Below, one piece after another: positions 1-60,861 of a DNA stretch of 64,000 nt. Location: contig NC_087077.1 in NCBI RefSeq assembly GCF_026151205.1, forward strand, positions 372,001-436,000, in the 5' to 3' direction. This stretch comes from Bolinopsis microptera (lineage: Eukaryota; Ctenophora; Tentaculata; Lobata; Bolinopsidae). The notes beneath the pieces are model-generated. The model ran no database searches. It was not told the origin of the DNA and saw only the letters and a program-made list of their open reading frames with translations. Position 1 is the first letter of the stretch, and the number at the start of each line of letters is the position of its first letter. Position numbers and translations under genes: made by a program.

Positions 1-3000
1 AAATGTTCATGTTGGTGAACTCTAAAGTAACGATTATATACTTGTCAGGTCAAATGTTCATCTTGGTGAACTCTAAAGTAACGATTATATACTTGTCAGG
101 TCAAATGTTCATGTTGGTGAACTGTAAAGTAACGATTATATACTTGTCAGGTCAAATGTTCATGTTGGTGAACTGTAAAGTAACGATTATATACTTGTCA
201 GGTCAAATGTTCATGTTGGTGAACTGTAAAGTAACGATTATATACTTGTCAGGCCAAATGTTCATGTTGGTGAACTGTAAAGTAACGATTATATACTTGT
301 CAGGTCAAATGTTTATGTTGGTGAACTCTAAAGTAACGATTATATACTTGTCAGGTCAAACATGTTCATGTTGGTGAACTCTAAAGTAACGATTATATAC
401 TTGTCAGGTCAAATGTTCATGTTGGTGAACTCTAAAGTAACGATTATTATATATTTGTCAGGTCAAATGTTCATGTTGGTGAACTCTAAAGTAACGATTA
501 TATACTTGTCAGGTCAAACATGTTCATGTTGGTGAACTCTAAAGTAACGATTATATACTTGTCAGGTCAAATGTTCATGTTGGTGAACTCTAAAATAACG
601 ATTATATACTTGTCAGGTCAAATGTTCATGTTGGTGAACTCTAAAGTAACGATTATATACTTGTCAGGTCAAATGTTCATGTTGGTGAACTGTAAAGTAA
701 CGATTATATATTTGTCAGGTCAAATGTTCATGTTGGTGAACTCTAAAGTAACGATTATATACTTGTCAGGTCAAACATGTTCATGTTGGTGAACTCTAAA
801 GTAACGATTATATACTTGTCAGGTCAAATGTTCATGTTGGTGAACTCTAAAATAACGATTATATACTTGTCAGGTCAAATGTTCATGTTGGTGAACTCTA
901 AAGTAACGATTATATACTTGTCAGGTCATATGTTCATGTTGGTGAACTCTAAAGTAACGATTATATACTTGTCAGGTCAAATGTTCATGTTGGTGAACTC
1001 TAAAGTAACGATTATTATATACTTGTCAGGTCAAATGTTCATGTTGGTGAACTCTAAAGTAACGATTATATACTTGTCAGGTCAAATGTTCATGTTGGTG
1101 AACTCTAAAGTAACGATTATATACTTGTCAGGTCAAATGTTCATGTTGGTGAACTCTAAAGTAACGATTATTATATACTTTTCAGGTCAAATGTTCATGT
1201 TGGTGAACTCTAAAGTAACGATTATATACTTGTCAGGTCAAACATGTTCATGTTGGTGAACTCTAAAGTAACGATTATATACTTGTCAGGTCAAATGTTC
1301 ATGTTGGTGAACTCTAAAGTAACGATTATATACTTGTCAGGTCAAATGTTCATGTTGGTGAACTCTAAAGTAACGATTATATACTTGTCAGGTCAAATGT
1401 TCATGTTGGTGAACTCTAAAGTAACGATTATATACTTGTCAGGTCAAATGTTCATGTTGGTGAACTCTAAAGTAACTATTATATACTTGTCAGGTCAAAT
1501 GTTCATGTTGGTGAACTCTAAAGTAACGATTATATACTTGTCAGGTCAAATGTTCATGTTGGTGAACTGTAAAGTAACGATTATATACTTGTCAGGTCAA
1601 ATGTTCATGTTGGTGAACTGTAAAGTAACGATTATATACTTGTCAGGTCAAATGTTTATGTTGGTGAACTGTAAAGTAACGATTATATACTTGTCAGGTC
1701 AAATGTTCATGTTGGTGAACTCTAAAATAACGATTATATATTTGTCAGGTCAAATGTTCATGTTGGTGAACTCTAAAGTAACGATTATATACTTGTCAGG
1801 TCAAATGTTCATGTTGGCGAACTGTAAAGTAACGATTATATACTTGTCAGGTGGAATGTTCATGTTGGTGAACTCTAAAGTAACGATTATATACTTGTCA
1901 GGTCAAATGTTCATGTTGGTGAACTCTAAAGTAACGATTATATACTTGTCAGGTCAAATGTTCATGTTGGTGAACTGTAAAGTAACGATTATATACTTGT
2001 CAGGTCAAATGTTCATGTTGGTGAACTGTAAAGTAACGATTATATACTTGTCAGGTCAAATGTTCATGTTGGTGAACTGTAAAGTAACGATTATATACTT
2101 GTCAGGTCAAATGTTCATGTTGGTGAACTCTAAAGTAACGATTATATACTTGTCAGGTCAAATGTTCATGTTGGTGAACTCTAAAGTAACGATTATATAC
2201 TTGTCAGGTCAAATGTTCATGTTGGTGAAACTGAACTCTAAAGTAACGATTATATACTTGTCAGGTGGAATGTTCATGTTGGTGAACTCTAAAGTAACGA
2301 TTATATACTTGTCAGGTGGAATGTTCATGTTGGTGAACTCTAAAGTAACGATTATATACTTGTCAGGTCAAATGTTCATGTTGGTGAACTGTAAAGTAAC
2401 GATTATATACTTGTCAGGTCAAATGTTCATGTTGGTGAACTCTAAAGTAACGATTATATACTTGTCAGGTCAAATGTTCATGTTGGTGAACTCTAAAGTA
2501 ACGATTATATACTTGTCAGTTCAAATGTTCATGTTGGTGAACTCTAAAGTAACGATTATATACTTGTCAGGTCAAATGTTCATGTTGGTGAAACTGAACT
2601 CTAAAGTAACGATTATATACTTGTCAGGTGGAATGTTCATGTTGGTGAACTCTAAAGTAACGATTATATACTTGTCAGGTGGAATGTTCATGTTGGTGAA
2701 CTCTAAAGTAACGATTATATACTTGTCAGGTCAAATGTTCATGTTGGTGAACTGTAAAGTAACGATTATATACTTGTCAGGTCAAATGTTCATGTTGGTG
2801 AACTCTAAAGTAACGATTATATACTTGTCAGGTCAAATGTTCATGTTGGTGAACTCTAAAGTAACGATTATATACTTGTCAGGTCAAATGTTCATGTTGG
2901 TGAACTCTAAAGTAACGATTATATACTTGTCAGGTCAAATGTTCATGTTGGTGAACTCTAAAGTAACGATTATATACTTGTCAGGTCAAATGTTCATGAT

Positions 3001-3165
3001 GGTGAACTCTAAAGTAACGATTATATACTTGTCAGGTCAAATGTTCATGTTGGTTAACTGTAAAGTAACGATTATATACTTGTCAGGTCAAATGTTCATG
3101 TTGGTGAACTCTAAAGTAACGATTATAAACTTGTCAGGTCAAATGTTCATGTTAGTGAACGTGAC
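1..3165 (+). repeat. 51-bp tandem array carrying the PAS-exon 3' splice site
   Basis: About 62 head-to-tail copies of a 51-bp unit fill the start of the window and run directly into the channel's PAS exon. Each unit holds TATATACTTGTCAG (a good 3' splice site), then GTCAAATGTTCATGTTGGTG, which nearly equals the first bases of the PAS exon. Translated in the exon's frame the unit reads MFMLVNSKVTIIYLSGQ, and the exon reads MFMLVNVTIPSFP, so the unit is a duplicated intron-exon boundary. Variants include single-base changes (ctc/ctg), +2 (aaacatg), +3 (attattatat) and +6 (gaaactgaac) insertions. The left end is cut by the window. Confidence 0.95.
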
Positions 3166-6100
3166 GATACCAAGTTTCCCGGTGGTGTTTGTTAGTAACG
3201 AGTTCACCACTTTCTATCGATATTCACGTAACGATGTGTACCTGAAGGATGCTAGACTAGCGTTTATGATGGGACCCTGTACCAGAAAGGGAATATTACG
3301 TGAGATAAAACATACTCTTGAAGCCTCAAACGAGAATACACTGGATTATGTGCTCTACACTAAGGATGGTATACCTGTTCCCACCACTATTGGTCTCTTG
3401 CGAGTCAAAAAACCGGATCATCACAACAACGACTCGTACTTTGCCATGACGTTTGATCCGTTCAAGAGTAAAGATGGACCTGTCGAAGGAGGTATAAAGT
3501 TTATTACTCTTGCAGTAGATTATGTGGAATGAATTCTGGTAACCAGACTTAAATGTTCTTGCATGAACTCTTCGTAGATTTTTTTTCGTGACACGTGAGT
3601 AACGTCGTTATCCGCAGAAAAAGACCCGGAGAAAGAGTTGAATGTTTGGTTGGGAGAAAAGTCTCTTGTTGCACCGATATTGAAGAACAAGGATAAAGTA
3701 TTGTATACGAAACATAAATCATTCAAAAGGTGTGTGTCCAAAAAGATTATTCGACTCTATTTATATTGTTGGGTCCGGGTCATTTTCTATCAGGTTTGCT
3801 ACCGGTCGCGGTCCCATTAGAATTGGTTGTAGAAATGTGGTTGAAGCCGAACTTTTAATTTCTACCACATTTCCAGACCCGGCCCCATTTCGAATGGACC
3901 GGTAATTTTTACATGATACCCTTGGCTAACGAGTCCTTAAATTTTTCAGGAAGATATTCCAAAGATTTACACAATTGTTTGAGAGCGTTAACCTTCTGGC
4001 GGACTCAACTATTCGTAAAACATGGGACTGGTTTATACTTCTTGCCAGTATCTGGGCAACTTTTTCAGTTCCTGTTCAAGTCTGTTTCGATGAAAAGATC
4101 TATTACTCCAAAGATGTAAGTCGTTTCACTACCTATTTTTACATCAAATTGAATTGAAGTTGCATATCAAACCTATTTCAAGCTTATGATTTTGCTGGGT
4201 TCTATCCTTTGTTATTATATTGGCTTCGTGATTGCTTCTAAGTTCTACAATCTACAACGATTTAATCGTTCAAACTTATTCCAGATTGATTTGATAACGG
4301 ATATTTTGTTTCTCATTGATATGGTAATGAACTTCCGCACTACATTCGTAAACGCTGATGGGCTTGTCATCCTGACTAGTAAAAAGATGGCGACCCATTA
4401 TTTGAAAGGGTGGTTTATTGTTGATTTATTGACTGCTGTACCCTGGCAGTTTCTACAGCTCATCAAGCCAGCCAAGGTAAGTTGACAATGGATTAATTTC
4501 CGAATGAGCCTGCGTAGATGTTTAGTTTTAAAAGTAAATTTTTTCCCGATCCATGACTCCTGTGCTGAAGGCACAAAAGAGCCAAGGACAAGGGTTAGCG
4601 AACGAGGTTTTTCTTTTCGTATATAATGGTAGCTTGCGACCGTCGTGCTTCGTCATACAAATGTGCCATCACGGATCGGGAAATTGAGCAGCCTTCCACA
4701 AAAGAAAAGCGGCTGCATTCCCTGCATTTCTTGTTTTAACTTTTGCTCTCTTATTTTTTATCAGATTTTCTAAACAACATCGAATTCCAGGCGTTTAGGT
4801 ACCTCAAGCTCACAAGGGTGTTGCGTATGGCTAAAGTGGCCTTTCACTTAGACGAGTACACTAAAAACGGTCCCATTTCCCTGATCCTCATCATCATGTA
4901 TTTCATTATGTTGGGTCACTTGATCGCGTGCGGCTGGTTTTGGTTGGGGCGGAGTGACTATGAGAGTAATATTGCTGGCTGGGTAACTTATCACCTTCAG
5001 AATAACCATTTCGTTCTTACTCCTGATATTGTTGGCGAACAAGGTTTTTAGTTCACATCTTTTTGATTTTAATTTTATAGTTGTTTATTTTATTATAAAA
5101 CTTAAGATGCATCTTGCTTGTCATAAACTATCAAATTATCATCTTTATTGTTTCTTTTGTTAAAATGAACATGTTCACATCAAATTTTTCTCATTGAATT
5201 GGCTTTAATTTTATCCTGATAAGAAAAGCCTCAATTTTCATATATATCAAAATGCTACCCACAGACTTACAAGAGGATTTCTACTCAGCCTCCCTTTATT
5301 TCGTCATGACTATTTTCTGTACCGTTGGATTCGGAAACATTGCACCCTGGAACGTTTCGGAACAGATTTTCTGTGTCATAGTCATGTTGATCGGAGGTGG
5401 GAGCATTATTTTTAATGCTGATTTTCTGTAATATATATAATAGATATCTTCCGTCATTTTCTCATCCCGTCATTTTCTCATCCCGTCATTTTCTCTTCCT
5501 ACTTAATTTGCTGTTAAAAATAATCTTTAGAAAATTACTGATATAATGTTAAAATTTCTACTTTGCAGCGTTCTTCTACGCTATAATCTTCGGGTCCGCT
5601 ACGAATATCATTATGAGAATGGGAGCCCAGCAGTCTCGGTTCCTGGACCAACAGAAAGATCTGGATCTATACACCTCCGTCAACAAGTTTCCTCTTGATC
5701 TCAAGGTTACCAATCTTGCTGTGATTCATTATTATAAATTTTTTGTCGGTTCTGTCCCTGTTCCACACAGAAATGTATACAAATTGTATACAAGTAAACC
5801 CTCATCAGTCTGTTGTTATCACTGATATTTCAAGTAAACCCTCATCAGTCTGTTGTTATCACTGATATTTCAATTAAACCCTCATCAGTCTGTTGTTATC
5901 ACTGATATTGTATACAAGTAAACCCTCATCAGTCTGTTGTTATCACTGATATTTCAAGTAAACCCTCATCAGTCTGTTGTTATCACTGATATTTCAAGTA
6001 AACCCTCATCAGTCAGCTGTTATCACTGATATTTCAAGTAAACCCTCATCAGTCTGTTGTTATCACTGATATTACAAGTAAACCCTCATCAGTCAGCTGT

Positions 6101-9100
6101 TATCACTGATATTACAACCTGGCCCTCATCAGTCTGTTGTTATCACTGATATTTCAAGTAAACCCTCATCAGTCTGTTGTTATCACTGATATTTCAAGTA
6201 AACCCTCATCAGTCTGTTGTTATCACTGATATTACAAGTAAACCCTCATCAGTCAGCTGTTATCACTGATATTTCAAGTAAACCCTCATCAGTCTGTTGT
6301 TATGACTGATATTACAAGTAAACCCTCATCAGTCTGTTGTTATCACTGATATTTCAAGTAAACCCTCATCAGTCTGTTGTTATCACTGATATTACAAGTA
6401 AACCCTCATCAGTCAGCTGTTATCACTGATATTACAAGTAAACCCTCATAGGTCTGTTGTTATCACTGATATTTCAAGTAAACCCTCATCAGTCTGTTGT
6501 TATCACTGATATTTCAAGTAAACCCTCATCAGTCTGTTGTTATGACTTATATTTCAAGTAAACCCTCATCACTCTGTTGTTATCACTGATATTGTATACA
6601 AGTAAACCCTCATCAGTCTGTTGTTATCACTGATATTTCAAGTAAACCCTCATCAGTCTGTTGTTATGACTTATATTTCAAGTAAACCCTCATCAGTCTG
6701 TTGTTATCACTGATATTGTATACAAGTAAACCCTCATCAGTCTGTTGTTATCACTGATATTTCAAGTAAACCCTCATCAGTCTGTTGTTATCACTGATAT
6801 TTCAAGTAAACCCTCATCAGTCTGTTGTTATCACTGATATTTCAAGTAAACCCTCATCAGTCTGTTGTTATCACTGATATTTCAAGTAAACCCTCATCAG
6901 TCTGTTGTTATCACTGATATTTCAAGTAAACCCTCATCAGTCTGTTGTTATGACTTATATTTCAAGTAAACCCTCATCAGTCTGTTGTTATCACTGATAT
7001 TTCAAGTAAACCCTCATCAGTCTGTTGTTATCACTGATATTTCAAGTAAACCCTCATCAGTCTGTTGTTATCACTGATATTACAAGTAAACCCTCATCAG
7101 TCTGTTGTTATCACTGATATTTCAAGTAAACCCTCATCAGTCTGTTGTTATCACTGATATTTCAAGTAAACCCTCATCAGTCTGTTGTTATCACTGATAT
7201 TTCAAGTAAACCCTCATCAGTCTGTTGTTATGACTGATATTACAAGTAAACCCTCATCAGTCTGTTGTTATCACTGATATTTCAAGTAAACCCTCATCAG
7301 TCTGTTGTTATGACTTATATTTCAAGTAAACCCTCATCAGTCTGTTGTTATCACTGATATTTCAAGTAAACCCTCATCAGTCTGTTGTTATCACTGATAT
7401 TTCAAGTAAACCCTCATCAGTCTGTTGTTATCACTGATATTACAAGTAAACCCTCATCAGTCTGTTGTTATCACTGATATTTCAAGTAAACCCTCATCAG
7501 TCTGTTGTTATCACTGATATTTCAAGTAAACCCTCATCAGTCTGTTGTTATGACTGATATTACAAGTAAACCCTCATCAGTCTGTTGTTATCACTGATAT
7601 TTCAAGTAAACCCTCATCAGTCTGTTGTTATCACTGATATTTCAAGTAAACCCTCATCAGTCTGTTGTTATGACTGATATTACAAGTAAACCCTCATCAG
7701 TCTGTTGTTATCACTGATATTTCAAGTAAACCCTCATCAGTCTGTTGTTATCACTGATATTTCAAGTAAACCCTCATCAGTCTGTTGTTATGACTGATAT
7801 TACAAGTAAACCCTCATCAGTCTGTTGTTATCACTGATATTTCAAGTAAACCCTCATCAGTCTGTTGTTATCACTGATATTTCAAGTAAACCCTCATCAG
7901 TCTGTTGTTATCACTGATATTGTATACAAGTAAACCCTCATCAGTCTGTTGTTATGACTGATATTTCAAGTAAACCCTCATCAGTCTGTTGTTATCACTG
8001 ATATTACAAGTAAACCCTCATCAGTCAGCTGTTATCACTGATATTTCAAGTAAACCCTCATCAGTCTGTTGTTATCACTGATATTACAAGTAAACCCTCA
8101 TCAGTCTGTTGTTATCACTGATATTTCAAGTAAACCCTCATCAGTCTGTTGTTATGACTGATATTACAAGTAAACCCTCATCAGTCTGTTGTTATCACTG
8201 ATATTTCAAGTAAACCCTCATCAGTCTGTTGTTATCACTGATATTACAAGTAAACCCTCATCAGTCAGCTGTTATCACTGATATTACAAGTAAACCCTCA
8301 TCAGTCTGTTGTTATCACTGATATTGTATACAAGTAAACCCTCATCAGTCTGTTGTTATCACTGATATTTCAAGTAAACCCTCATCAGTCTGTTGTTATC
8401 ACTGATATTACAAGTAAACCCTCATCAGTCTGTTGTTATGACTTATATTTCAAGTAAACCCTCATCAGTCTGTTGTTATCACTGATATTTCAAGTAAACC
8501 CTCATCAGTCTGTTGTTATCACTGATATTTCAAGTAAACCCTCATCAGTCTGTTGTTATCACTGATATTTCAAGTAAACCCTCATCAGTCTGTTGTTATG
8601 ACTTATATTTCAAGTAAACCCTCATCAGTCTGTTGTTATCACTGATATTTCAAGTAAACCCTCATCAGTCTGTTGTTATCACTGATATTACAAGTAAACC
8701 CTCATCAGTCTGTTGTTATCACTGATATTTCAAGTAAACCCTCATCAGTCTGTTGTTATCACTGATATTTCAAGTAAACCCTCATCAGTCTGTTGTTATC
8801 ACTGATATTACAAGTAAACCCTCATCAGTCAGCTGTTATCACTGATATTTCAATTAAACCCTCATCAGTCTGTTGTTATGACTGATATTACAAGTAAACC
8901 CTCATCAGTCTGTTGTTATCACTGATATTGTATACAAGTAAACCCTCATCAGTCTGTTGTTATCACTGATATTTCAAGTAAACCCTCATCAGTCTGTTGT
9001 TATCACTGATATTTCAAGTAAACCCTCATCAGTCTGTTGTTATCACTGATATTACAAGTAAACCCTGGCCCTCATCAGTCAGCTGTTATCACTGATATTT

Positions 9101-12100
9101 CAATTAAACCCTCATCAGTCTGTTGTTATCACTGATATTTCAAGTAAACCCTCATCAGTCTGTTGTTATCACTGATATTACAAGTAAACCCTCATCAGTC
9201 AGCTGTTATCACTGATATTTCAATTAAACCCTCATCAGTCTGTTGTTATGACTGATATTACAAGTAAACCCTCATCAGTCTGTTGTTATCACTGATATTG
9301 TATACAAGTAAACCCTCATCAGTCTGTTGTTATCACTGATATTTCAAGTAAACCCTCATCAGTCTGTTGTTATCACTGATATTACAAGTAAACCCTCATC
9401 AGTCAGCTGTTATCACTGATATTTCAATTAAACCCTCATCAGTCTGTTGTTATGACTGATATTACAAGTAAACCCTCATCAGTCTGTTGTTATCACTGAT
9501 ATTGTATACAAGTAAACCCTCATCACTCTGTTGTTATGACTTATATTTTAAGTAAACCCTCATCAGTCTGTTGTTATCACTGATATTTCAAGTAAACCCT
9601 CATCAGTCTGTTGTTATCACTGATATTACAACCTGGCCCTCATCAGTCTGTTGTTATCACTGATATTTCAAGTAAACCCTCATCAGTCTGTTGTTATCAC
9701 TGATATTTCAAGTAAACCCTCATCAGTCTGTTGTTATCACTGATATTACAACCTGGCCCTCATCAGTCTGTTGTTATCACTGATATTTCACTTTCTCAGA
9801 ACCGAATGGAGGACTATTTCTACTACCACTGGTTCAACAGTAAAGGTATTGAGCACTCCCAGATGATGCAGGATTGGCCCAGGACCCTCAAGGAAGACAC
9901 TTCTCTCTTCCTTCACAGGATTCTGTTTGCGGAGTGGCCTGTGTTTAACGAGGCTAGTACAGGCTGTAGACGGTCTCTGAGCTCACTTGTTGAGAGGCAT
10001 GGTAGGTACTGGCTGTATACGGTCTCTGAGCTCACTTGTTGAGAGGCATGGTAGGTACTGGCTGTATACGGTCTCTGAGCTCACTTGTTGAGAGGCATGG
10101 TAGGTACTGGCTGTACACGGTCTCTGAGCTCACTTGTTGAGAGGCATGGTAGGTACTGGCTGTAGACGGTCTCTGAGCTCACTTGTTGAGAGGCATGGTA
10201 GGTACTGGCTGTAGACGGTCTCTGAGCTCACTTGTTGAGAGGCATGGTAGGTACTGGCTGTATACGGTCTCTGAGCTCACTTGTTGAGAGGCATGGTAGG
10301 TACTGGCTGTATACGGTCTCTGAGCTCACTTGTTGAGAGGCATGGTAGGTACTGGCTGTAGACGGTCTCTGAGCTCACTTGTTGAGAGGCATGATAGGTA
10401 CTGGCTGTAGACGGTCTCTGAGCTCACTTGTTGAGAGGCATGGTAGGTACAGGCTGTAGACGGTCTCTGAGCTCACTTGTTGAGAGGCATGGTAGGTACT
10501 GGCTGTAGACGGTCTCTGAGCTCACTTGTTGAGAGGCATGGTAGGTACTGGCTGTAGACGGTCTCTGAGCTCACTTGTTGAGAGGCATGGTAGGTACAGG
10601 CTGTAGACGGTCTCTGAGCTCACTTGTTGAGAGGCATGGTAGGTCACACTGGATCATATTATCAACGCTTCTAGTACGTAACGACGGAATGATATGATTA
10701 AATAACCATACAATATCAGTCGAATTATTGATGAATAAAATTAGAGTATTGACAACTTGAATGTTTACTGTAGTTTTACTGTAGTTTTACTGTAGTTTTA
10801 CTGTAGTTTTACTGTAATTTTACTGTAGTTTTACTGTAGTTTTACTGTAGTTTTACTGTAGTTTTACTGTAGTTTTACTGTAGTTTTACTGTAGTTTTAC
10901 TGTAGTTTTACTGTAGTTTTACTGTAGTTTTACTGTAGTTTTACTGTAGTTTTACTGTAGTTTTACTGTAAGTTTCAATGTAGGTTTCACTCCTGGAGAT
11001 TACATAGTCCACGAAGAAGACTGTGTTGATGCAGTGTACTTTCTGGTTCGTGGTCACGTGAAGATTCTGAAGGACGGTGACGTCATTGGAATTCTAAGTA
11101 AGTCTGTAATTTATTGGAGAATTTTTAAATCGTATCTTATATTTCGTGTAATTGTAAAGCATTTTTATTTTTACCTTTGAGCGTTCGATACGTTTATCAT
11201 GTTTCTTGTTTAGCAATGGGAGACACATTCGGAGAGAAATGGTGGCCGACAGCCGCGTCAGGCAAAGCAAACGCAGACATACAAGCAATGACATACGCCG
11301 AAATCGAGGTGTTGACCCACGAGGTAAACATTTATTGTTTCTACGGATTTATAATTTAAATTTACCAAAATTCACCAAATTTAGCTGACACATGTATGAA
11401 TTGTAATTAATTAATGAATTGCAAACTACCTACGCGCTACGATCACAGTGTAGCACTGAGACCCAGTTAACCGGTTCTTTATCAGCGTTTGAAGGACATC
11501 CTGGTCAAGTTCCCAGATTACTGGTCCATGTGGGAGCAGAAGCTGGACATCACGTACGAGTTGGCTAATCGAGCAGACCAGAATATCTTTGTGAGTTCTT
11601 ATACTTTTCAGATTTACAGACGGTATTAGGTAACCTAAATCACCGTCTCTAATATTGTTGTACTTGTTTACTCACAAAATAATTGATGGTACCAAGCTGA
11701 GGAATAAGCTCGAAAAAATATGAGCCGTTAGTCGAAGACGAGTTATTTGAAAGCTTCTGAAACCCCTCTTCTGAAACCCCTCTTCTGAAACCCCTCTTCT
11801 GAAACCCCTTATGTATTTGTAAGTGCACGTCACAGATTGTGAATCAAGAAGTCGCAAATCACAATCATCTGTAACATACCTATCACGTACTTGATTACTT
11901 ATCGAACATGCTTTTTTAGATTTAAAATTGATTGAGTTCCATTTTGAACAATCTTTCCAGAGTCACGAAAAACAATTGACTATGATTAATTATAGTTAAT
12001 AATATATAGTTATTTTAATGATAGTTAATATATTATATTTACAATGAAAAGTTGTACTCCAATTTTTTTCAATAGTTGTTTATGATCATTCATTATAATT

Positions 12101-18000: not shown

Positions 18001-18005
18001 TCAAT

Positions 18006-18137: not shown

Positions 18138-18144
18138 CGACAAA

Positions 18145-19800: not shown

Positions 19801-19809
19801 AGGTTTAGC

Positions 19810-20742: not shown

Positions 20743-20832
20743 AACCAGGGATCAGCTGATACAGTACTGAAGGAGGTTATCAGCATGCTTCAGGGATCAG
20801 CTGATACAGTACTGAAGGAGGTTATCAGCATG
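20743..20832 (+). repeat. 45-bp direct duplication
   Basis: GGGATCAGCTGATACAGTAC followed by tgaaggaggttatcagcatgct occurs twice in tandem. It lies in the decayed transposon-like gene. Confidence 0.85.
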
Positions 20833-20954
20833 CTACAGAAGATACAGATAAACACGTCACTGATAAATGTTTGACACAACCAGCGTCGATTATGGGATCC
20901 ACAAGGGTGTTCGGCTGGAGGGGCACCTCAACAGATCTCTGCTACAATTTGCCT

Positions 20955-21136
20955 GTCGGCATCATGTTTTAGAGATCTGGGGAGGTGCTGCCTGCTCAGT
21001 GGTGTATGGAGACACGGCATCATGTTTCAGAGATCTGGGGAGGTGCTGCCTGCTCAGTGGTGTATGGAGACACGACATCATGTTTTAGAGATCTGGGGAG
21101 GTGCTGCCTGCTCAGTGGTGTATGGAGACACGACAT
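20955..21136 (+). repeat. 59-bp tandem triplication inside the decayed gene
   Basis: Three copies of a unit running from atcatgtttyagagatctgg through GGTGCTGCCTGCTCAGTGGT to gtatggagacacg. The unit is not a multiple of three, so the copies read in different frames. Confidence 0.9.
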
Positions 21137-21624
21137 CTCCAGATGAGAGCTGCTACAAGGCTTTCTGCGGTGTATGGGAATGCATCAAGACCAGCGACTA
21201 TTCCCTGCCAACCATTTCTGGGAGTTTCTTGAAGGGGCTGCAGGCCTCCACATTCCTTACAGAATTTGTAAAGGACGAGGATTCGTGCTGCACTCTGCGG
21301 TACGATTATCCTGAACTTGCAGAGTTAGCTCTGCATCTGCTTGGGGGAACGTGGGGATCCTGACGGGATCAAGTTCAGGGCACCTGGAGCCACCCACCAT
21401 GCCAGGTGGATGGCAGGAATGCTGTACACATTTAAGATAACTCTGTTCAGAAAACAGCTATCTGATGTGTTCTAGGAAGATTGCCTTGACCTGATAGAAG
21501 AACTGGGTACCTCGCACTATTTTACGTGCAGTACTGGCTGTGCTGCACAAGTGCAGTACTAGCTGTGCTGCACAAGTGCCGCTGATGCTCCAGCACAGGA
21601 CCTAGCTCTTACGACACTGTTCAG

Positions 21625-22065
21625 CACTTGTTAGTAGTGTTACAAGCACGTTTAAAGAGCTGGTTAGTAATGTTACAAGCACGTTTAAAGAGCTGGTTAG
21701 TAATGTTACAAGCACGTTTAAAGAGCTGGTTAGTAATGTTACAAGCACGTTCAAAGAGCTGGTTAGTAATGTTACAAGCACGTTTAAAGAGCTGGTTAGT
21801 AATGTTACAAGCACGTTTAAAGAGCTGGTTAGTAATGTTACAAGCACGTTTAAAGAGCTGGTTAGTAATGTTACAAGCACGTTTAAAGAGCTGGTTAGTA
21901 ATGTTACAAGCACGTTTAAAGAGCTGGTTAGTAATGTTACAAGCACGTTCAAAGAGCTGGTTAGTAATGTTACAAGCACGTTTAAAGAGCTGGTTAGTAA
22001 TGTTACAAGCACGTTTAAAGAGCTGGTTAGTAATGTTACAAGCACGTTTAAAGAGCTGGTTGAAG
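21625..22065 (+). repeat. 33-bp tandem array in coding-derived sequence
   Basis: About 13 nearly identical copies of TTAGTAATGTTACAAGCACG plus tttaaagagctgg. The length is a multiple of three, so long open frames appear on both strands (LVMLQARLKSW repeats on +, SLNVLVTLLTS on -). In the third frame the unit reads SNVTSTFKELV and leads into VEARWQLG, probably the original frame. Confidence 0.95.
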
Positions 22066-22424: not shown

Positions 22425-23140
22425 GAGTGTCACTAAGGACACAGCGACAAGCTCTTCTCCAGGTGTCACTAAGGACACAGCGACAAGCTCTTCTCCAGGT
22501 GTCACTAAGGACGAGACACAGCGACAAGCTCTTCTCCAGGTGTCACTAAGGACACAGCGACAAGCTCTTCTCCAGGTGTCACTAAGGACACAGCGACAAG
22601 CTCTTCTCCAGGTGTCACTAAGGACACAGCGACAAGCTCTTCTCCAGGTGTCACTAAGGACACAGCGACAAGCTCTTCTCCAGGTGTCACTAAGGACACA
22701 GCGACAAGCTCTTCTCCAGGTGTCACTAAGGACACAGCGACAAGCTCTTCTCCAGGTGTCACTAAGGACACAGCGACAAGCTCTTCTCCAGGTGTCACTA
22801 AGGACACAGCGACAAGCTCTTCTCCAGGTGTCACTAAGGACACAGCGACAAGCTCTTCTCCAGGTGTCACTAAGGACACAGCGACAAGCTCTTCTCCAGG
22901 TGTCACTAAGGACACAGCGACAAGCTCTTCTCCAGGTGTCACTAAGGACACAGCGACAAGCTCTTCTCCAGGTGTCACTAAGGACACAGCGACAAGCTCT
23001 TCTCCAGGTGTCACTAAGGACACAGCGACAAGCTCTTCTCCAGGTGTCACTAAGGACACAGCGAAAAGCTCTTCTCCAGGTGTCACTAAGGACACAGCGA
23101 CAAGCTCTTCTCCAGGTGTCACTAAGGACACAGCTCTTCT
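22425..23140 (+). repeat. 36-bp tandem array derived from a coding motif
   Basis: About 19-20 copies of a 36-bp unit (CACTAAGGACACAGCGACAA then gctcttctccaggtgt). One copy at 22506 retains a 3-bp extra gac/gag and reads TKDETQRQALLQV, the likely ancestral motif; the rest read LRTQRQALLQVS. Sequence after the array resumes as unique coding-like DNA and then AT-rich flank. Confidence 0.95.
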
Positions 23141-44300: not shown

Positions 44301-45750
44301 AAACCAATTGCCTTTGTCATGCTAAAATTTATTAGCTCAATTCAATCGAGGTGACTATGCCATTTTTGTTGTCCAATAAATTTTTCTAACCCAGCAGCCG
44401 CCCATTGGGGGTTATGCAAACCTAATAGTTTATATTAGGTAGAGCTTCCACGATATATGAATACTCGTTTAGTATAAATTGTATAACCGTGTCTGAATCC
44501 ACTTAAGATATGTCCCCTATCCCATCATGCATACCCTCAGGGTATTTTGTTTTGTTCTGTCTTAATTTTTTTGTACATTGAGAGTTCACAGTGTATGTTC
44601 CTTTGCACGTAATTGATTAGGGTTCACTTTTCTAAAATTGGAAAAGATTTGGGTGGACGGCCGGCCGGCGGAGGTGGGTGTGGTGGGGGGAACACTAAAC
44701 CGAGTTGGTCACGGCGGTCGTGCCAATAGGTATAGAAAATTGTTTTCGCCAGGAACTGTTAAAAAAAGATAGAAGCGACTAACCATTCCCCTGTACTGCT
44801 ACCGCTTACTGCATAATGCTACCGTCTGCAATTGCTCTTTGTCCGCTCCTGACCTGGCTACCTGTCCTCTTACTTGTCCATTGTCATTTTTCTAAGAGAG
44901 GTACATTTTGTATATACAGAAAGAAATTTTCACCTGTGTATAAAAATTAAAGCGACTGTTTATTGCAAGCACGCTACACCACAATAATATAACTATTTTC
45001 GTATCACTGCACATGGTTGCATGCCCTTTTGTTTCGGTCTTACACTATCATGCCGATTTTGCAGTTTTTGTACAAATGTTTAACTTAGTTTTCAGCTTTT
45101 ATATATTCTGTGCCTGCTTATTTGATCAAGCCTTATTAGGGGGATTATCGGTCTATATTATGTATGCTGACACTAATTTTAGGGCTGAGAAGTGTAGGGC
45201 GGCAAATCAAATGGCAAGTGTGGAATGAGGATGTGGGATGTAACAAATTTAGTTTTGAACTTATCTGGAGAGTTCAGTGGAGTAAGTTTGTAAGTGTGAA
45301 GTGAATGTGGGTATGAGGCCATATGGAGTGTTAGTCTAACCTACTGGACTGTAGAGAACGGTTGAATTTTCCAAATTATTAAAAATAATAATAGCTTTAG
45401 TAATGTTAAGTTTAGTACATAACTTAATATACTGGTTTTTTTTTACGGATACTACGGAAACGGTTTTCAAGATCTGTAAATCTGTGGTTGAGATTTAATA
45501 TGAATTAAATAACAGTTCACTTGTACGGGAGACATATTTATCGTTTCGACACAAATTCGGGGGGAGCTAAAAAAGAATTTGGTAAAAGAAAAATATGGGA
45601 TTATGTACGAAAACAATTTTTTGTCATTTCCTTTTGTAATTCAACTTTCAATGAAATAATATTTGATACAAAATCAAAAATCTTCTTTGATCAGCTGTTC
45701 CATCTTGTAAACAACTTCTCCGGAGCCTTTGAAAGCTAGCCTCAGTTTAA
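41390..45750. repeat. Segmental duplication, first (diverged) copy
   Basis: This block matches 45915-50000 in order. Paired landmarks include cacttggtagttcacttggtata (41394 / 45925), cgtaattctag..gtctaatt (43119 / 46502), TTGATGCGATAAAAACTC (about 43882 / 47400), GATTAGGGTTCACTTTT (44617 / 48329), TATCACTGCACATGGTTG (45002 / 49165) and TTTTGTAATTCA near the right end (45632 / 49941). Many indels separate the copies. The first copy stops just before the position of the sulfotransferase start, so it holds the gene's upstream region without the gene. Confidence 0.7.
42420..43115. repeat. Degenerate relatives of the 29-bp CACGTG repeat
   Basis: Irregularly spaced fragments such as gtcatgta, ttagcgctaa, gtcacgtgtcat and aactcagtggt match the unit that is perfectly repeated at 46067-46503. 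It occupies the same place in the first copy of the segmental duplication. Confidence 0.6.
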
Positions 45751-46066
45751 CTTATAATCCTCCAGAGGGTATAGGATACAGACAGTGTTTGTTATCTTCC
45801 ATTAATCCCGAAATTTCACCGCCGTGGCCGTGGTCAATAATGTAGTGACAGAGCTTGCTTATTCTTAACGGAACGTCACGTCCAAAATCGTTTTTAAAGC
45901 AATTCATGATCGAATACTAGTGTTCACTTGGTAGTTAACTTGGTATAGTAAGTTCATCCATAATCTGTAGATTTCGTTTTTATCCACACTAAAACAGATA
46001 CAAAATCGGACCAGCTGTACCTGCATGTTATAATGAAGGGACTTTAAACAGACTTTACAGTGGTAA

Positions 46067-49021: not shown

Positions 49022-49976
49022 TGTTATTTGTACTTTGTAGAGTACATTTCTTGTATAACAGGCAGATAAGTGTAAATCTTATCTCACCTTGCAATGTATA
49101 AAAGATAAGCCGAGCTCAGTTGTAGTGCAAGCAGTTACACGTATAAATAAGTATAACTATTTACGTATCACTGCACATGGTTGAAAGCCCCTTTTGTCCG
49201 GTCTTACAGCTGACGTAATGTCCATTTGTGCAGTGTTTATTATAATGTTTAACATTAACCCTTTTTCATTGAAACTTTTATTATTTCTTGTAGCCTGCTT
49301 TTTTGTGTCCTTTTTTATTAGGTAATTTCTGTCATAATATGTCAAATCTTTATTTATATTTCATAGTTGGCGACGAAGTGAGAGTCTGCAAATCAAATTG
49401 TTGTCATTATTTGTTTGATACGAGATGCAGTGCAACAAATTTAGATTTTGAACATTTCGTTGTGAATTTTAGTGTAATTATTAGTTTTGTTAAAGTTACC
49501 AAATGAATGATAGTATTGAGCATTGGACGTGATTAGATCAATACATACTGTCCTGTAAAGAAAGTTGATTTTACCATAATTATAAAACAAAAATAACTGC
49601 ACGACTTTAGTTTTACCATATAAATAATTTGAGTAATACAATTAATAAATCTGTCGATTTTCGTTATTTTGACGGATTACTACGGAAAGAAGACGTTTAT
49701 CAATGATATGAGTAAATTCAATGTGTGGGAAAATATATCACATATAATTTAAATAAACAGTTTCATTAGGTTGGAGGATGAAATATTCAAAAATCGTTGA
49801 TTAGAAATTCCGACAACATCTCGTAAGGATGAGGAAGCTAAAGAAAATGGTAAGCTCTTGCTTTATTAAAGACAATTAAATCATTGCTGATTACTGTTAC
49901 GAAAACATATTATCTCATGTCGCCCTCTTGGGTTTTCTCATTTTGTAATTCAGCTTTCCATTGCAATAATAATATC

Positions 49977-51461
49977 ATGATATCAAAATTTCAGGTTAAA
50001 TGTTTATTTTTGATTGCAGCTGCGTTGCTATCTCTTGAAGTCGTCACAATCATCATCGACGGGAGAGGCTTATTAATAAACACTTCCCAACATGAACAAT
50101 CAAGAACTGGAGGCTTAATCTACAGAAACAATCAAGTGGATCTAAGTGAAACTAATGTTCTTATAGAACGAATGCCTCAGAAAGAGTTGGCAGTGAAAGA
50201 AGATCTTGTGGTTGGAGATGATAACTCATTGCCCAAACATGGGACCAACAAAATTGATAAAGAGTTATTGCCACATGATAAATCAAGTGATGAAAAATCA
50301 AACATTCGAGATATTAGGGTTAATAGGATTGATAAAGAGCAAACAATTCAAAAAGACGTTACAGATCCTAACTTAGTTTTAAATGAAAATAGTGCATCCA
50401 ATGAAAATAACATTCACCAGAAAGATGCATCTCAAAAAGGCTTGTCTGTTCTTATCAAAGAATCAAAGGACATATTTGATCTTCTTCCGGAAAAATATCT
50501 TCCTGATTACAAAAGTTTCTGTTGGTATAATAAGGATGAGTTTAAATGTTTGGCATCGGTTTACATCGCTGGTATGCCTAAGTGTGGTACAACTGATCTG
50601 TTCGTGAAGATGATGAGACATCCTCAGCTAACTTATCAAACTCATGCTGATGGAGATCCTCCCAAGGAGTATCATTACTGGGCACGGAGTCGAGTAGCAA
50701 GAAATAAGTGGTTGTTTGCTGACCCTAAGCGTCGATCACATAAGGAATTATTTTCTAAGTTTTTGAAGGGAACTGGAGCTGAGAGAGTGAAGACAAATTT
50801 AAAAATTCAAATCGTGGATGGAACACCATCTTTGTTGTGGGACTTAGCGGGATGGGATAGAAGATACCCGAAGGCAGATGAACCACCATATTCGAATGGA
50901 GACCTAATTCACTCTGTCACGCCAGATGCAAAAATAATTGGAATATTAAGAGATCCAATTGACCGATTGTACTCTGAGTATCTCTATTTCTGGCTTAAAA
51001 AATCGGAGGTTCGTACTCCTGAAACATTTCACACTGAAGTGGTTAAAGAAGTTTTATTTTTTAATTCATGTCTGACATCAAATAAACTTAGGTCATGCTG
51101 TTATCCCTCACGTGCTATGAACACTGTTAAAATACGACTTGAGCTAGGGATTTATGTGTGCTTCGTCCAGGACTTTCTGGAAGCATTTGGAACCAATCTA
51201 TTGATATTAACTCTAGAAGAATATCATTTACACCCAGTCGATATTCTTACTACAGTATTTAATCACATTGAGGTGTCGGTCCCAGAGGATTTGCAGAAAT
51301 TTATTGAAGATTCAAAAACTGGAAATACTAACACTGGACTGAAAAATGAGGTTGGGGATATATTACCTAAAACTAAGCAGATACTGAGTGATTTCTATGG
51401 TCCTTATAATTCTCAGCTGGCATTGTTACTGCAAAATTCAAAATATTTATTCAATTCTTAA
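49977..51461 (+). CDS. Carbohydrate sulfotransferase (CHST15-like), intronless
   Basis: Likely Golgi type II membrane enzyme that moves sulfate from PAPS to a glycan; family members sulfate chondroitin GalNAc residues, but the substrate here is unknown. I prefer the ATG at 49977 (494 aa) because it puts a membrane anchor (CLFLIAAALLSLEVVTIII) near the N-terminus; the open frame extends in-frame to 49884, adding 31 residues. Numbering from 49884: anchor about 40-58, Asp/Lys-rich stem about 60-200, 5'-phosphosulfate loop YIAGMPKCGTTDLF at 227-240 (Lys233), TPSLLWD at 314-320, and 3'-phosphate loop IIGILRDPIDRLYSEYLYF at 351-369 (Arg356, Ser364). Both PAPS-binding motifs are intact. Cys pairs near 213/222 and 396/405/406 could form disulfides. 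The gene has no intron, unlike its neighbours, so a retroposed origin is possible. Confidence 0.9.
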   Translation: MISKFQVKCLFLIAAALLSLEVVTIIIDGRGLLINTSQHEQSRTGGLIYRNNQVDLSETNVLIERMPQKELAVKEDLVVGDDNSLPKHGTNKIDKELLPHDKSSDEKSNIRDIRVNRIDKEQTIQKDVTDPNLVLNENSASNENNIHQKDASQKGLSVLIKESKDIFDLLPEKYLPDYKSFCWYNKDEFKCLASVYIAGMPKCGTTDLFVKMMRHPQLTYQTHADGDPPKEYHYWARSRVARNKWLFADPKRRSHKELFSKFLKGTGAERVKTNLKIQIVDGTPSLLWDLAGWDRRYPKADEPPYSNGDLIHSVTPDAKIIGILRDPIDRLYSEYLYFWLKKSEVRTPETFHTEVVKEVLFFNSCLTSNKLRSCCYPSRAMNTVKIRLELGIYVCFVQDFLEAFGTNLLILTLEEYHLHPVDILTTVFNHIEVSVPEDLQKFIEDSKTGNTNTGLKNEVGDILPKTKQILSDFYGPYNSQLALLLQNSKYLFNS

Positions 51462-55809: not shown

Positions 55810-55878
55810 GTTTTAAGACAGTAGGAGGAATGAAAAATATGCGAGTTGTATCTTGGCTATCGTGAGCTGCTCTGGAAA

Positions 55879-56007
55879 TTGACGGATGTTACTCGTCTAA
55901 ATTTCTTCGAAGTAGCGCGCGCCGCTTTCTTCTCGAAATGCAATGTTGGCCCGATGGCAAGTGCTACGAAGTAGCGCGCGCCGGGCCTGATCATTAACAA
56001 TGGTCAA
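55879..56007 (-). repeat. GC-rich interspersed element, copy D (inverted)
   Basis: Reverse orientation: starts TTGACGGATGTTACTCGTCT and ends GATCATTAACAATGGTCAA on the plus strand. With copy C it would fold into a long hairpin. Confidence 0.9.
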
Positions 56008-56390
56008 GGGCTATAAACAAATATTTATACAGATTAGCATCTTATCTTGTATCTGCAAAAATTTCACATCGCCATGAGTCTTCGTGGGCGCGCGCTACTG
56101 CTATGTAAGCTCGAGGCCGACGGCTCTTGTTAGAGCAATATGCAAAAATCATTTCAAAATTAGTATTGCTTTCTTTTTACCTAGCTTGCTAATCCATTGT
56201 TCACTTTGTACTTAGCTTGCTAGTCTATTTGCTTGCTAGGTTATTTAATTTAATTGCTAGACTATTATGTACTACTCTATTCCCTGTCCAGGAGGCTAGA
56301 AAAGAGTGCTGCGCACAGTGCAGGTACTGGCGTCCCGGATTACGGATGTCAAATAAAATTGGCTTAACGGGCGATTGGTGTGTGGTGATA

Positions 56391-56524
56391 TGTTGTCCAT
56401 TGTCAATGGACTGACCCGGCGCTGCGTGCGCTACTTTGTTGTTTGTAGTACTTATCTCGGACAATATTTCGAGAAAAACGGCGCGCGGTACTTTGGCGAA
56501 ATTTAGACTAATAACATCCGTCAA
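56391..56524 (+). repeat. GC-rich interspersed element, copy E (diverged)
   Basis: Starts TTGTCCATTGTCAATGGACT and ends AATAACATCCGTCAA; the interior is recognisable but more diverged than in copies A-D. Confidence 0.85.
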
Positions 56525-57872
56525 GTGATATGTGATACTCGTTGAATATTTATTCCAAACAACATTAGTTGACGAGTCCAACTCGGCGCGCGTCCTGGTA
56601 GGTTATAAACCTACAACGTAGCTGGGCTGTGAAGGATTGACATATCGTCAATCAAGTTAATTCTAAGTATTAAGTGTAGAATCAAGCAAGTTATTACCTA
56701 GCTTGCTATATACTCTGCGATTTCTATTCGATAAATTTATTTTTAATTATACCAAAAGTTGTCTTAAAATGTGAATAAAATTGATACATGCAACGTATGT
56801 CAAGAATAAAATAATTCCACCGTGCAGCAATTTTATTTCACTGTTAACGGCGCTTAGTCGCCGCGCTCTCTCTTTTCAGTTTTTATAGTTTTTGGTCCAC
56901 AGGCCACAACCAACAACGTCCATAGTTCAGTTATTTAATTTTGAACCTGAACATTTTGAAAAAATTGGTCCTTCAAATATTATAATTTGGATACCAAAAG
57001 TTGTGTCTAAATCTGATCAAGATTATTATAGATGTTGTACAGTGTACTTATAGGCATGAAGCATTTTAAGCGAGAAATTATCCATTTTTCGTCCTTTCTG
57101 CACGCTTGCAATGCATAGCTACAGGAGACCCACATACAACTCGACCTTTTGCTAATTTTGTAAGTGGTAAGGTTACCTAGTCTGCTATTATTATTATATT
57201 GCTCGGTTATCTCACGAATATGCAAGAAGTGGAAAGAGCGCCGCGCAGATGGTCAGGTGAGGCATTTAAAACTCGTGATCGCTATTTATCAGAGGCGGGA
57301 GTGGGGAGAAAAATAATCAAAACAAGTTTTTCATAAAATGGATTAAACTGAATAAAATTAAAGGCAAAACATAAATAGTAATACGATTTGAGATATTTTA
57401 GTAACCACGCACAACGGAAATGTCGACGTATATATACCAAAATAAATGAATTTGCCTCGTGATTCACCCAAGGCTGATCAGTTTGCATTGTCATGGGTTT
57501 TCATCCCCAAATATATCATCCAAGTATAATATCATTCGCCAATATTGTCCCTTTATCAGCATTTCATCAATAATATCAGATTTGGGAAACATTTGAAATA
57601 CAAATATTCGAATTTCAAGAACAACAAGCTGTCAGCGGCAATTAAAATTATTAGGACGAACGCAATATCTCAATTCTCAGCCGTAACTTGAAGTCTCTGG
57701 GTAGAAAGGGAAAAGTTGTACTTCCACTTTCAGAGAGCCATTAAATTCGTCATATGTGTTCGTTCTGTAACACCCCGAATGCACCCAAGTGACCGTGAAC
57801 CAATGAGTGATGTTAGATTGTCAAAATACTCTCCAGTCTAAGCATGATGTTAATAAATAGTTATTCTCCGGG
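56525..57872. other. Downstream flank of MED14, no gene seen
   Basis: AT-rich sequence, probably including the MED14 3' UTR on the minus strand at its right end. No coding region was recognised. Confidence 0.5.
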
Positions 57873-60687
57873 TTAAGCGCCGACAGGGGTGGTAGGGTCT
57901 AACTGCTGGAGCAGTTCCACGATGTAGTTACAGATAGAACCCGGACCAGGCTGTCCTCCTGAGAAAAGTAATGGTATTGACTGTTGAAGATTGTGCGAAT
58001 ATGATCATTAAGGAAATGGCATCTGACGACTACAGAAAATACTCAAATGTATAATATAACGACACCAGTGATAACATTGAGAATTTTTACCTTGTTCAGA
58101 TATCTGAGCAGTAACATGTCTGAAGTGATTCTGAATCTCTGGGCCATGTAATCGTTTGGCATTAGCTCTGCTCCGGCCCTCTTCGTTGTGCCGGTCTGGG
58201 ACTCAAATACCATGGGAATTGTTACCGGATTATTGGGTCGTTGAGGGTGTTCTAGTTGTATCTGAAAATGAAATAGAAGATTATGTTTGAAACCGATTTT
58301 TGAAAGCGAAATTTTGACTTTAATTATTCATATACCAATGTGGATCGTTGATGTAATATCTGGATAGGAACAATATTTATGAGCCACAATGTTGTGATGT
58401 TTAAAGTCCAAAATTTCTCTCTTCTCGTAAAAACGTAACAAGAATTGTTGACTCACAAAAAATAGTATCTTGTGATTGGAGAAGAGAGCACCGCACATGC
58501 CGGGCTGTAAAACATTGTTGGTAGACTGGACAACTGGAGGAACGAGTGGGAACCACTTCAAGTTCCATTGGAAGCGTGGGTTGGGCTCCTGGGAGGGAAA
58601 AAGTCAGAGTTAAATTCATTTTGTAGAGTGATTTTATTTATTTACAATTACTGTGGATTGTGGTTTATTTAATAACTTAAATTGTTCAACTAAACTGATG
58701 TAGATTCATTTTAATATGTAAACCCACCAGTTCAAGTGTCATGATGTTGATGAATTGCTGTAAGATGTCTTTAGGTGCGCCCAAAATACGCAGAAAACTA
58801 ATCAGGGCATTGTACTTGAAAGGATTAACGGCGATCTGAAATGAGACATCGTTAATGGTAATCATGGTAGTCCAGAGTAACGCGGTAAATAAGACATCGT
58901 TAATGGTAATCATGGTAGTCCAGAGTAACGCGGTAAATGAGACATCGTTAATGGTAATCATGGTAGCCCAGAGTAACGCGGTAAATGAGACATCGTTAAT
59001 GGTAATCATGGTAGTCTAGAGTAACGCGGTAAATGAGACATCGTTAATTGTAATCATGGTAGTCCAGAGTAACGCGGTAAATAAAACATCGTTAATGGTA
59101 ATCATGGTAGTCCAGAGTAACGCGGTAAATGAGACATCGTTAATTGTAATCATGGTAGTCCAGAGTAACGCGGTAAATGAGACATCGTTAAAGGTAATCA
59201 TGGTAGTCCAGAGTAACGCGGTAAATAAAACATCGTTAATGGTAATCATGGTAGTCCAGAGTAACGCGGTAAATGAGACATCGTTAATTGTAATCATGGT
59301 AGCCCAGAGTAACGCGGTAAATGAGACATCGTTAATGGTAATCATGGTAGCCCAGAGTAACGACTAACGCGGTAAATGAGACATCGTTAATTGTAATCAT
59401 GGTAGCCCAGAGTAACGCGGTAAATGAGACATCGTTAATGGTAATCATGGTAGTCCAGAGTAACGCGGTAAATAAAACATCGTTAATGGTAATCATGGTA
59501 GTCCAGAGTAACGCGGTAAATGAGACATCGTTAAAGGTAATCATGGTAGCCCAGAGTAACGCGGTAAATGAGACATCGTTAATTGTAATCATGGTAGTCC
59601 AGAGTAACGCAGTAAATGAGACATACGTTTGAAACTTGATTGGCATCAACAAACTCATCGCCATTTACGTTCGACAGAAATAATTTTCTGACTCCGTTTC
59701 TAAAAGCTAATTCTCAGCCGAGAAAACCAATAACATCAAAGTTCTGTCCTATTCCTACCTTTTCGGCGAAGTAAGCGACGAGCGTATCGATCATTTTTTT
59801 GTTCCAGAATCCATCTTTAGTTGGAGTAACGCTAAGTTGTAAGGACTGGAAATTATTGGGCTCGATACTGAACCTGAAGTCGGCATCAAGGTTATTATGA
59901 TGGACTGTAAAATAAAACTGATGCATTTACGATTTCTCAGAAACGGACAAAACAACGACAATAATTTCCGGAAAATGATTTCGTCTTAACTGAAATCCAT
60001 AACTCTACCTGTAGAAGCAACTCTACCTGTAGAAGCAAAGGTCGGAATGAAGAAGAGATGTTGACATTAGCTCGTTACTGCGTATTGATAATAACTGAAA
60101 TGTATGGTACTGATATTTAGGGGCTGTTAAGAAATTTCTGAGCAAATTCACATGCAGGACTGTGAATTGAGGGGACTGATAAACAAATATAAAGTGATAT
60201 ACAACAAGAGAACAATCAAATTAATAAAAAAAATTGTAATTTATTTATTTATATATATTTTTTAATCAAAGCACTAACATTTCGTATCTTATCAGGGATA
60301 GCACTGGCGATGTGTCGTTTCAGAAGGCATGCTGATATCAGATTCTCTAGAACGCAGCACCTTCTTTTGTCTGCGGCTTAAAACAATAAACTTACATCTA
60401 GACAATTTTACAACTTTACTAGCTTAATATAGTAACACATTTATGCTGAAATAGGAAGTCTAGTTTATAGACAATTCCACAGATAAGCAAATGGAATCAG
60501 TAAAATATGGCAAAATAAGGTGTTGGTTACTGACTTGTGTTGATGTTATCGCAGGTAAAGGGGTTGTTATAGTTGTTAAGTAGGGTGTTCAACATAGGCT
60601 TGTTGATAAAGAGGGTAGTGGAGTGGCGAGGTGTTCTGGACTTGTTGGAGTTGTTTGGACTCTGGGAGAACTGTCCGGCTGGCTGGC
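57873..60687 (-). CDS. MED14: Mediator complex subunit 14 (MED14), C-terminal exons
   Basis: MED14 is the backbone subunit joining head, middle and tail of Mediator, the nuclear co-activator of RNA polymerase II. Exons on the minus strand: 60687-60535, 60370-60279, 60094-60027, 59904-59759, 58835-58728, 58588-58457, 58261-58091 and 57980-57873 (stop TAA). Phases agree at every junction except 60027/59904, which is off by one base. Residues track the vertebrate C-terminus: LENLISACLLKRHIASAI, SLQLSVTPTKDGFWNKKMID, YNALISFLRILGAP then FINIMTLEL, FQWNLKWFPLVPP, ALFSNHKILFFIQL, NNPVTIPMVFESQTGTT, and CNYIVELLQQL before the end. The first exon here enters in phase 1, so upstream exons exist; the next ~700 bp hold none I can see, and two same-strand hydrolase genes follow. 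Family is certain; completeness is not. Confidence 0.9.
58838..59635. repeat. 48-bp array in a MED14 intron, abutting a 3' splice site
   Basis: About 16 copies of a 48-bp unit (AACGCGGTAAATGAGACATC, gttaatggtaatcatgg, tagtccagagt). On the MED14 sense strand each copy contains GTCTCATTTACCGCGTTACTC, similar to the real acceptor and exon start GTCTCATTTCAG / ATCGCCGTTAATC at 58836. Length is a multiple of three, giving chance frames on both strands. Confidence 0.93.
60007..60044 (-). repeat. 18-bp duplication of a MED14 5' splice site
   Basis: On the MED14 strand, TTGCTTCTACAG then GTAGAG is present twice in tandem, so two identical donors stand 18 bases apart (exon ends 60027 or 60009). An in-frame TAG in the extra copy means only the upstream donor (60027) avoids a stop. 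Confidence 0.8.
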
Positions 60688-60702
60688 CTGGAGAGAGTCA
60701 GT

Positions 60703-60861
60703 GTAATATCAGTGCACGTGATGTAATATCAGTGCACGTGATGTAATATCAGTGCACGTGATGTAATATCAGTGCACGTGATGTAATATCAGTGCACGTG
60801 ATGTAATATTAGTGCACGTGATGTAATATCAGTGCACGTGATGTAATATCAGTGCACGTGA
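60703..60861. repeat. 20-bp array with CACGTG, next to a MED14 acceptor
   Basis: Eight copies of ATGTAATATCAGTGCACGTG, one with atatt. The array lies about 15 bases upstream (in MED14 sense) of the acceptor ctctctccag of exon 60687. Each unit holds an E-box palindrome. Confidence 0.93.

Follow-up and report, generated by a model that had tools for sequence, protein, structure and literature searches.

The window analysed here is a stretch of 64,000 nucleotides from the ctenophore Bolinopsis microptera (C6:372001-436000), whose genome totals 264.65 Mb in 232 contigs, and TRF reports 49 rows of tandem repeats in it, overlapping rows being counted. A gene at 3-12 kb of the plus strand has an Ion_trans domain over the cut-off and a PAS_9 domain just below the curated cut-off. 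It is a K+ channel gene, which we read as being of the EAG/KCNH type. The gene at 58-61 kb of the minus strand is MED14, in which RM8_Med14 is just over and Med14_C is below the cut-off. A decayed multi-copy gene occupies 20.7-23.3 kb. A 535-codon open frame with sulfotransferase domains is found at 49854-51458 (plus strand), and two adjoining look-alike open frames lie on the minus strand. One of them (61415-62584) matches PF02275 (E 8.7e-43), the family of linear amide C-N hydrolases (choloylglycine hydrolase), and the likeness of the other (63213-63998) to it is seen in translation only. The features considered below are collected in Table 1.

Table 1. Exons and tandem arrays of the window, in window coordinates
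Feature	Position	Strand	Basis
51-bp array at the PAS-exon acceptor, channel gene	1..3160	+	TRF, genome DNA search, periodicity to exon position +23; exon start 3138
Channel exon with PAS-like domain	3138..3491	+	PAS_9 E 9.9e-6; donor at GTATAAAG read by eye
Channel open frame, Ion_trans segment	4153..4482	+	Ion_trans PF00520 E 6.2e-7
40-bp array, 99 copies, channel intron	5791..9790	+	TRF; 9 bp short of acceptor (exon start 9800)
49-bp array, 14 copies, across exon end and donor	9957..10644	+	TRF, periodicity; exon end 10001
11-bp array before the next acceptor	10764..10987	+	TRF, periodicity; exon start 10983
45-bp unit, 2.1 copies, decayed multi-copy gene	20746..20838	+	TRF; aligned to relative L038
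58-bp unit, 3.1 copies, coding-type sequence	20960..21137	+	TRF; L038 alignment
25-bp unit, 2.2 copies, coding-type sequence	21526..21579	+	TRF; L038 alignment
33-bp unit, 13 copies, coding-type sequence	21630..22061	+	TRF; L038 alignment
36-bp unit, 19.5 copies, coding-type sequence	22427..23134	+	TRF; L038 alignment
48-bp array, 16 copies, MED14 intron	58839..59629	-	TRF, periodicity; exon start 58835
18-bp duplication, 2 copies, across MED14 exon end and donor	60001..60038	-	TRF, periodicity; exon end 60027
20-bp array, 8 copies	60702..60864	-	TRF, periodicity; exon start 60687

The arrays listed in an earlier note on this DNA are recovered by TRF where that note had placed them, the unit given there as 59 bp being one of 58 bp. 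At the junction of each named array the sequence was compared with a copy of itself shifted by one period. Exon bases lie inside the unit in three of the six named intronic arrays. The 51-bp unit comprises 28 intron and 23 exon nucleotides at an acceptor, and the 49-bp and 18-bp units comprise 45 exon with 4 intron and 12 exon with 6 intron nucleotides respectively. A splice junction with exon bases is thus part of the unit in the 51-, 49- and 18-bp arrays. It is not in the 48-bp array, which stops 3 bp before the acceptor with neither the acceptor AG nor exon bases in its unit, nor in the 20-bp array, which stops 14 bp before the acceptor and lacks exon bases. The case of the 11-bp array is ambiguous, its unit being acceptor-like, its TRF end lying 5 nt into the exon and its exact periodicity ending 12 nt before it. 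The longest array of the window, that of the 40-bp unit (4 kb), has no exon bases in its unit and is absent from the list of the earlier note.

The 51-bp array extends upstream past the window edge to about 114 copies in all (TRF 61.4 + 52.6). Of its 98 GGTCAAATG motifs, 89 are preceded and framed as TTGTCAG. TRF match identity is 96% for the 51-bp, 98% for the 49-bp and 100% for the 18-bp array, the last having only 2 copies. The pentamer TGAAC stands on either side of the 51-bp array, and inspection by eye gives about 2 bp of sequence shared by the flanks for the 49-bp and the 18-bp array. In the locus L001 (about 2960-3290) some 300 bp, ending in AATTCTAATTCTAATTC, split the first one or two 51-bp units from the rest; this stretch resembles a non-LTR element's 3' end inserted into the array.

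The presence of the adjacent exon in each unit had been put forward as something that chance placement would not produce. An array is necessarily built of the DNA at its birthplace wherever that may be, so that a unit which copies the exon beside it does not point to a preference. Under random placement 2.2 exon-containing arrays are expected among nine arrays of the window against the 3 found, the introns having been delimited by eye and the 20-bp array omitted from the expectation because its upstream exon is not known.

The channel gene has undergone a recent partial duplication, its 5' part being found again on the same contig at 293-303 kb (C6:293400-303400), about 70 kb from the copy in the window. 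The match covers window positions 1-11471 and stops before the 3' exons, with only dispersed repeats beyond it in the stretches examined. The two copies differ at 39 of about 1,885, 28 of about 1,877 and 4 of 598 bases in three aligned pieces (0.7-2.1%), the last two of which include some array sequence. The arrays differ in their copy number, with 14 copies of the 51-bp unit in the paralog against about 114 at the window locus, 15 of the 40-bp unit (TRF period 44) against 99, and 10.3 of the 11-bp unit against 20. The gap for the 40-bp array, which has no exon bases, is as large as that for the 51-bp array, which has them. The 49-bp stretch at the exon end and donor is present as a single copy in the paralog and as 14 in the window, in an intron common to both. 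This array may have been born from the exon end and donor or may have collapsed to a single copy in the paralog, birth being the simpler reading. The intron is present in the paralog with its one copy as well, so that this site does not show a new intron.

The decayed gene has a relative on C8 (L038), with 91% identity over the 70 residues searched and open frames of about 230 codons. The relative aligns with the units of all five arrays of the decayed gene (45, 58, 25, 33 and 36 bp), each of which is single-copy there; none of the five was found by TRF in L038, where a hexamer array alone is reported. The 33-, 36- and 58-bp units, which the earlier note took to have grown from coding sequence, are among those matched in this way, and the frames of the relative are long. 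Since the five arrays are single-copy in the relative, the comparison indicates that arrays can arise within coding-type DNA under relaxed selection.

The placement of arrays relative to exons has been analysed in 11 dynein heavy chain genes, whose exons were obtained from protein alignment alone, with our own spliced aligner. This family was chosen because two members with open frames of 3357 and 3703 codons supply the reference proteins. The first set comprises nine more compact loci (145 kb, 225 introns), and the held-out set comprises two wider genes (100 kb) for which the prediction on acceptors was fixed beforehand; other dynein loci, for example those on C12 and at C1:834,000, were left out. 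The exon calls of gene C4b are weaker than those of the other genes (best score 1236). At C3:8951001-8962000 and C1:6093501-6105000 (L004-L007), dynein genes in which one open frame exceeds 3,300 codons stand beside intron-rich paralogs, and may be read as cases of large-scale intron loss or as still-open retrocopies. A stretch of 435 bp of ACCCTA hexamers, the telomere-type TTAGGG on the other strand, has also been observed between dynein exons in L011 (C5:2733501-2743500, about 5123-5557).

The introns of the dynein sample are short, with a median of 179 bp (176 bp after collapsing the arrays), and because of this a unit of 40 bp will often meet an intron edge by chance. Arrays make up 22.7% of the intron sequence of the 11 genes, the share being 1% in introns below 200 bp and 37% in introns above 3 kb. 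No array of period 7 or more lies wholly inside an exon among 292 reliable dynein exons (73.4 kb).

Several arrays at the junctions of these genes contain exon bases. They are found at acceptors in C1b (37 and 35 bp), C2b (35 bp) and C4b (29, 39 and, by eye, 44 bp), and at donors in C1a (18 bp), C1b (55 bp) and C2b (62-65 bp). The 44-bp array of C4b ends in TRF 34 bp before the exon and therefore stands outside the eight counted below. Four of those eight (C1b 37 and 35, C4b 29 and 39) reach only 3-6 bases into the exon, in part perhaps through chance extension. The 29-bp array of C4b consists of about 209 units over 6 kb with 192 acceptor motifs; the 32-bp array of the same gene has about 159 units with 159 donor motifs and begins exactly at the donor, without exon bases. 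Twelve splice motifs each are present in the 35-bp (12.4 copies) and 65-bp (12.1 copies) arrays of C2b. Hand-entered values for 12 junction arrays show no departure of the unit's exon share from a uniform distribution (KS P 0.77, a weak test at n=12). Copying from an excised intron, with the array ending exactly at the AG, was considered and set aside on account of this evenly spread share.

Arrays outside reliable introns were dropped from the count by set (3 of 46 in the first and 13 of 65 in the held-out set). Among the 43 arrays of the first nine genes, 6 cover an acceptor or come within 12 bp of one against 2.4 expected (P 0.02) and 2 at a donor against 2.4. With a score of at least 200, the acceptor arrays are 5 of 10 against 0.67 expected (P 5e-5), with one at a donor. 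Five of the six acceptor matches come from the single gene C1b. The acceptor-preference rule suggested by these figures failed in the two held-out genes, where 2 of 52 arrays lie at acceptors against 3.5 expected; the number becomes 3 with the C2b array 45543-45976, which contains the acceptor and exon bases and was dropped in this test for an unreliable neighbour and counted in the pooled one. Donors have 8 arrays against 3.5 in the held-out genes (P 0.013), an excess that was not predicted and that includes one artefact of exon calls inside an array. The 17 held-out arrays scoring at least 200 give 2 against 2.1 at acceptors and 4 against 2.1 at donors.

In the pooled test all arrays of an intron were collapsed to one unit each and placed uniformly within that intron, an edge being counted only where its exon is reliable. 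A second null compares the coverage of junctions with the coverage of intron bases by non-junction units, giving a per-junction ratio. Both exclude introns below 35 bp, exon edges supported by under 8 aligned residues or by less than 22% identity, and two exon calls of C4b that lie inside an array. A 10-bp array of C8, located where the alignment begins, does not overlap any intron and is uncounted. The P values are uncorrected across the several size classes.

Exon-containing arrays number 8 in the pooled 11 genes (289 introns, 543 edges, 109 arrays) against 9.2 expected, and with the 12-bp zone included the count is 17 against 13.6 (P 0.17). At scores of at least 100, 8 of 43 arrays contain exon bases (6.1 expected), and 13 fall within the 12-bp zone (7.9 expected, P 0.018). 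In the largest class, with scores of at least 200 and at least 3 copies, the corresponding figures are 6 of 24 against 3.4 (P 0.08) and 9 of 24 against 4.5 (P 0.0095), the latter becoming 5 of 16 against 3.9 without gene C1b. The collapsed null gives for the 12-bp zone 8 of 45 against 4.9 (P 0.08) in the first nine genes, with 4 of 8 against 0.6 (P 0.0014) in their largest class, and 9 of 64 against 8.7 in the held-out genes, with 5 of 16 against 3.9 in theirs. The per-junction ratio is 0.85 (0.37-1.68), 1.54 (0.67-3.04) and 2.53 (0.93-5.50) with rising size class; the held-out genes by themselves give 4.16 (1.13-10.65) in the largest class. Array births are thus without enrichment at junctions overall, and an excess of junctions among the largest arrays is possible but unproven.

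We consider it likely that these arrays result from indiscriminate local tandem duplication filtered by selection, in which junction arrays are tolerated by virtue of an outer splice site; this reading draws on 11 genes of one family and assumes uniform placement. Segments of about 10-100 bp would be duplicated frequently in tandem and then grow in copy number, as minisatellites do, by slippage, unequal exchange or a similar process. Amplification of local sequence by replication or repair, as the earlier note had proposed, is well supported by units that consist of the adjacent DNA, by the differing copy numbers of the paralogs and by the short end homologies seen by eye at three arrays. The initial event may be slippage or a microhomology-mediated duplication, with slippage or unequal exchange following it. 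Births would take place without detectable regard to exon borders, a birth on a junction giving a unit that contains the junction, and in short introns many births would touch an edge by chance. Those inside coding exons would be removed by selection. A junction-spanning birth would be tolerated where an intact site persists at the outer edge of the array, either the first donor or the last acceptor. The added units would stay in the intron because this site remains intact, and splicing there would leave the protein unchanged.

A process linked to transcription or splicing that makes or grows arrays preferentially at exon borders, the rule originally suggested for this genome, appears unlikely. 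It would account for the large acceptor arrays of the first nine genes, for the 9 of 24 largest arrays in the 12-bp zone with their ratio of 2.53, and for the held-out donors, an unpredicted excess with its one artefact. Against these stand the acceptor signal, which comes in five of six cases from one gene and was not replicated in the held-out set, the pooled counts of 8 of 109 exon-containing arrays and 17 in the 12-bp zone, the overall ratio of 0.85, and the 40-bp array, equally variable between the paralogs without exon bases. A preference for transcribed exon borders is therefore not upheld. An intermediate reading, to which we would give a slightly better though still minor chance, combines random births with biased growth, so that arrays containing or abutting a junction would reach large size about 2-2.5 fold more often than other intronic arrays, by a process connected with transcription, with splicing during transcription or with the junction's structure.

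The retention of junction arrays for their usefulness, as a source of alternative splice sites or of an in-frame repeat protein, is highly improbable in our view. The AG or GT motif is intact in most units of the arrays counted, and a 772-codon frame (1214-3529) spans the end of the 51-bp array, its last 1.9 kb being in frame, together with the PAS exon. The upstream part of this array is nevertheless broken into several open frames, with unit spacings of 50, 55 and 58 bp, and the period is divisible by 3 in only 4 of 12 junction arrays by hand count, which is the share expected by chance; coding use of the arrays was rejected on this ground. An assembly artefact, with misassembled haplotypes behind the arrays or the paralog, is scarcely credible. 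Assembling arrays is difficult, and the divergence of the paralogs over the three aligned pieces is in our judgement within a plausible allelic range, but both copies lie on one contig, with about 70 kb between them, and in the stretches examined their match ends at window position 11471 save for dispersed repeats. The comparison of one with 14 copies of the 49-bp unit would moreover hold even if the two copies were alleles.

Several known systems share features with these arrays. The available text of two reports (PMC4974935, PMC2891723) describes how introns are gained when a tandem duplication spans an intron-exon boundary, with the splicing signals inherited from the parent structure; the duplication across the boundary is alike, whereas here an existing intron grows. 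In human segmental duplicates, variable internal tandem repeats have been found at exon-intron boundaries, with transcripts that show changed gene structures, according to the accessible part of that report (PMC2812944). The copy-number differences between recent paralogs are similar to those seen here, where the genes alone are read and an unchanged protein is assumed from homology. The LRR genes of Tetrahymena have arrays of 90-bp exons in which the whole exon and intron are repeated and translated, as far as the excerpted account goes (PMC6564038); they share with our arrays the intragenic repetition of splice sites, and differ from them in that only junction fragments are repeated here. 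For the ctenophore Hormiphora, the accessible text of the genome paper puts the repeats found by TRF at 13% of the genome (PMC8527503). Among the matches listed for ctenophore minisatellites and intron tandem repeats there is no report of arrays across exon-intron boundaries of the kind described next, which is not a proof of their absence.

The closest counterparts are the 'mirages' of amphioxus, minisatellite-like tandem duplications across exon-intron boundaries. In the available text they are described from the globin genes BflGb6 and BflGb9 and from Adh3 (PMC3087553, PMC3902484), with TnC and PGBD5 as further cases (PMC3902484). They may affect either boundary, 5' or 3'; AG or GT is present in many of their units, their copy number is unstable and the units of Adh3 are of 10-72 bp (PMC3087553, PMC3902484); they are reported from cephalochordates and leave regular splicing undisturbed, again as given in the accessible part (PMC3087553). 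Several of these features are found in the window, with minisatellite-like arrays, boundary-spanning units (51, 49 and 18 bp), both 5' and 3' boundaries affected and AG or GT within the units. Instability of copy number is seen here between paralogs and not between individuals (about 114 against 14 for the 51-bp and 14 against 1 for the 49-bp unit). The boundary-spanning arrays of the window are an instance of the mirage-type phenomenon known from lancelets and not a new rule.

The present case differs in that the organism is a ctenophore and the arrays are far larger, reaching about 209 units over 6 kb in the dynein gene C4b against the 6 and 3 units given for BflGb6 in the available account. 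It differs also in that the frequency of the arrays has been set against random placement, while splicing at the outer site is a point that we infer from homology. The null so obtained is quantitative, in that short introns and frequent minisatellite birth lead one to expect splice-junction arrays by chance. These observations bear on the growth of introns, given the share of arrays in the dynein sample, and on the choice that the spliceosome makes among scores of near-identical sites. They extend the lancelet phenomenon to a ctenophore, at a much larger size of array.
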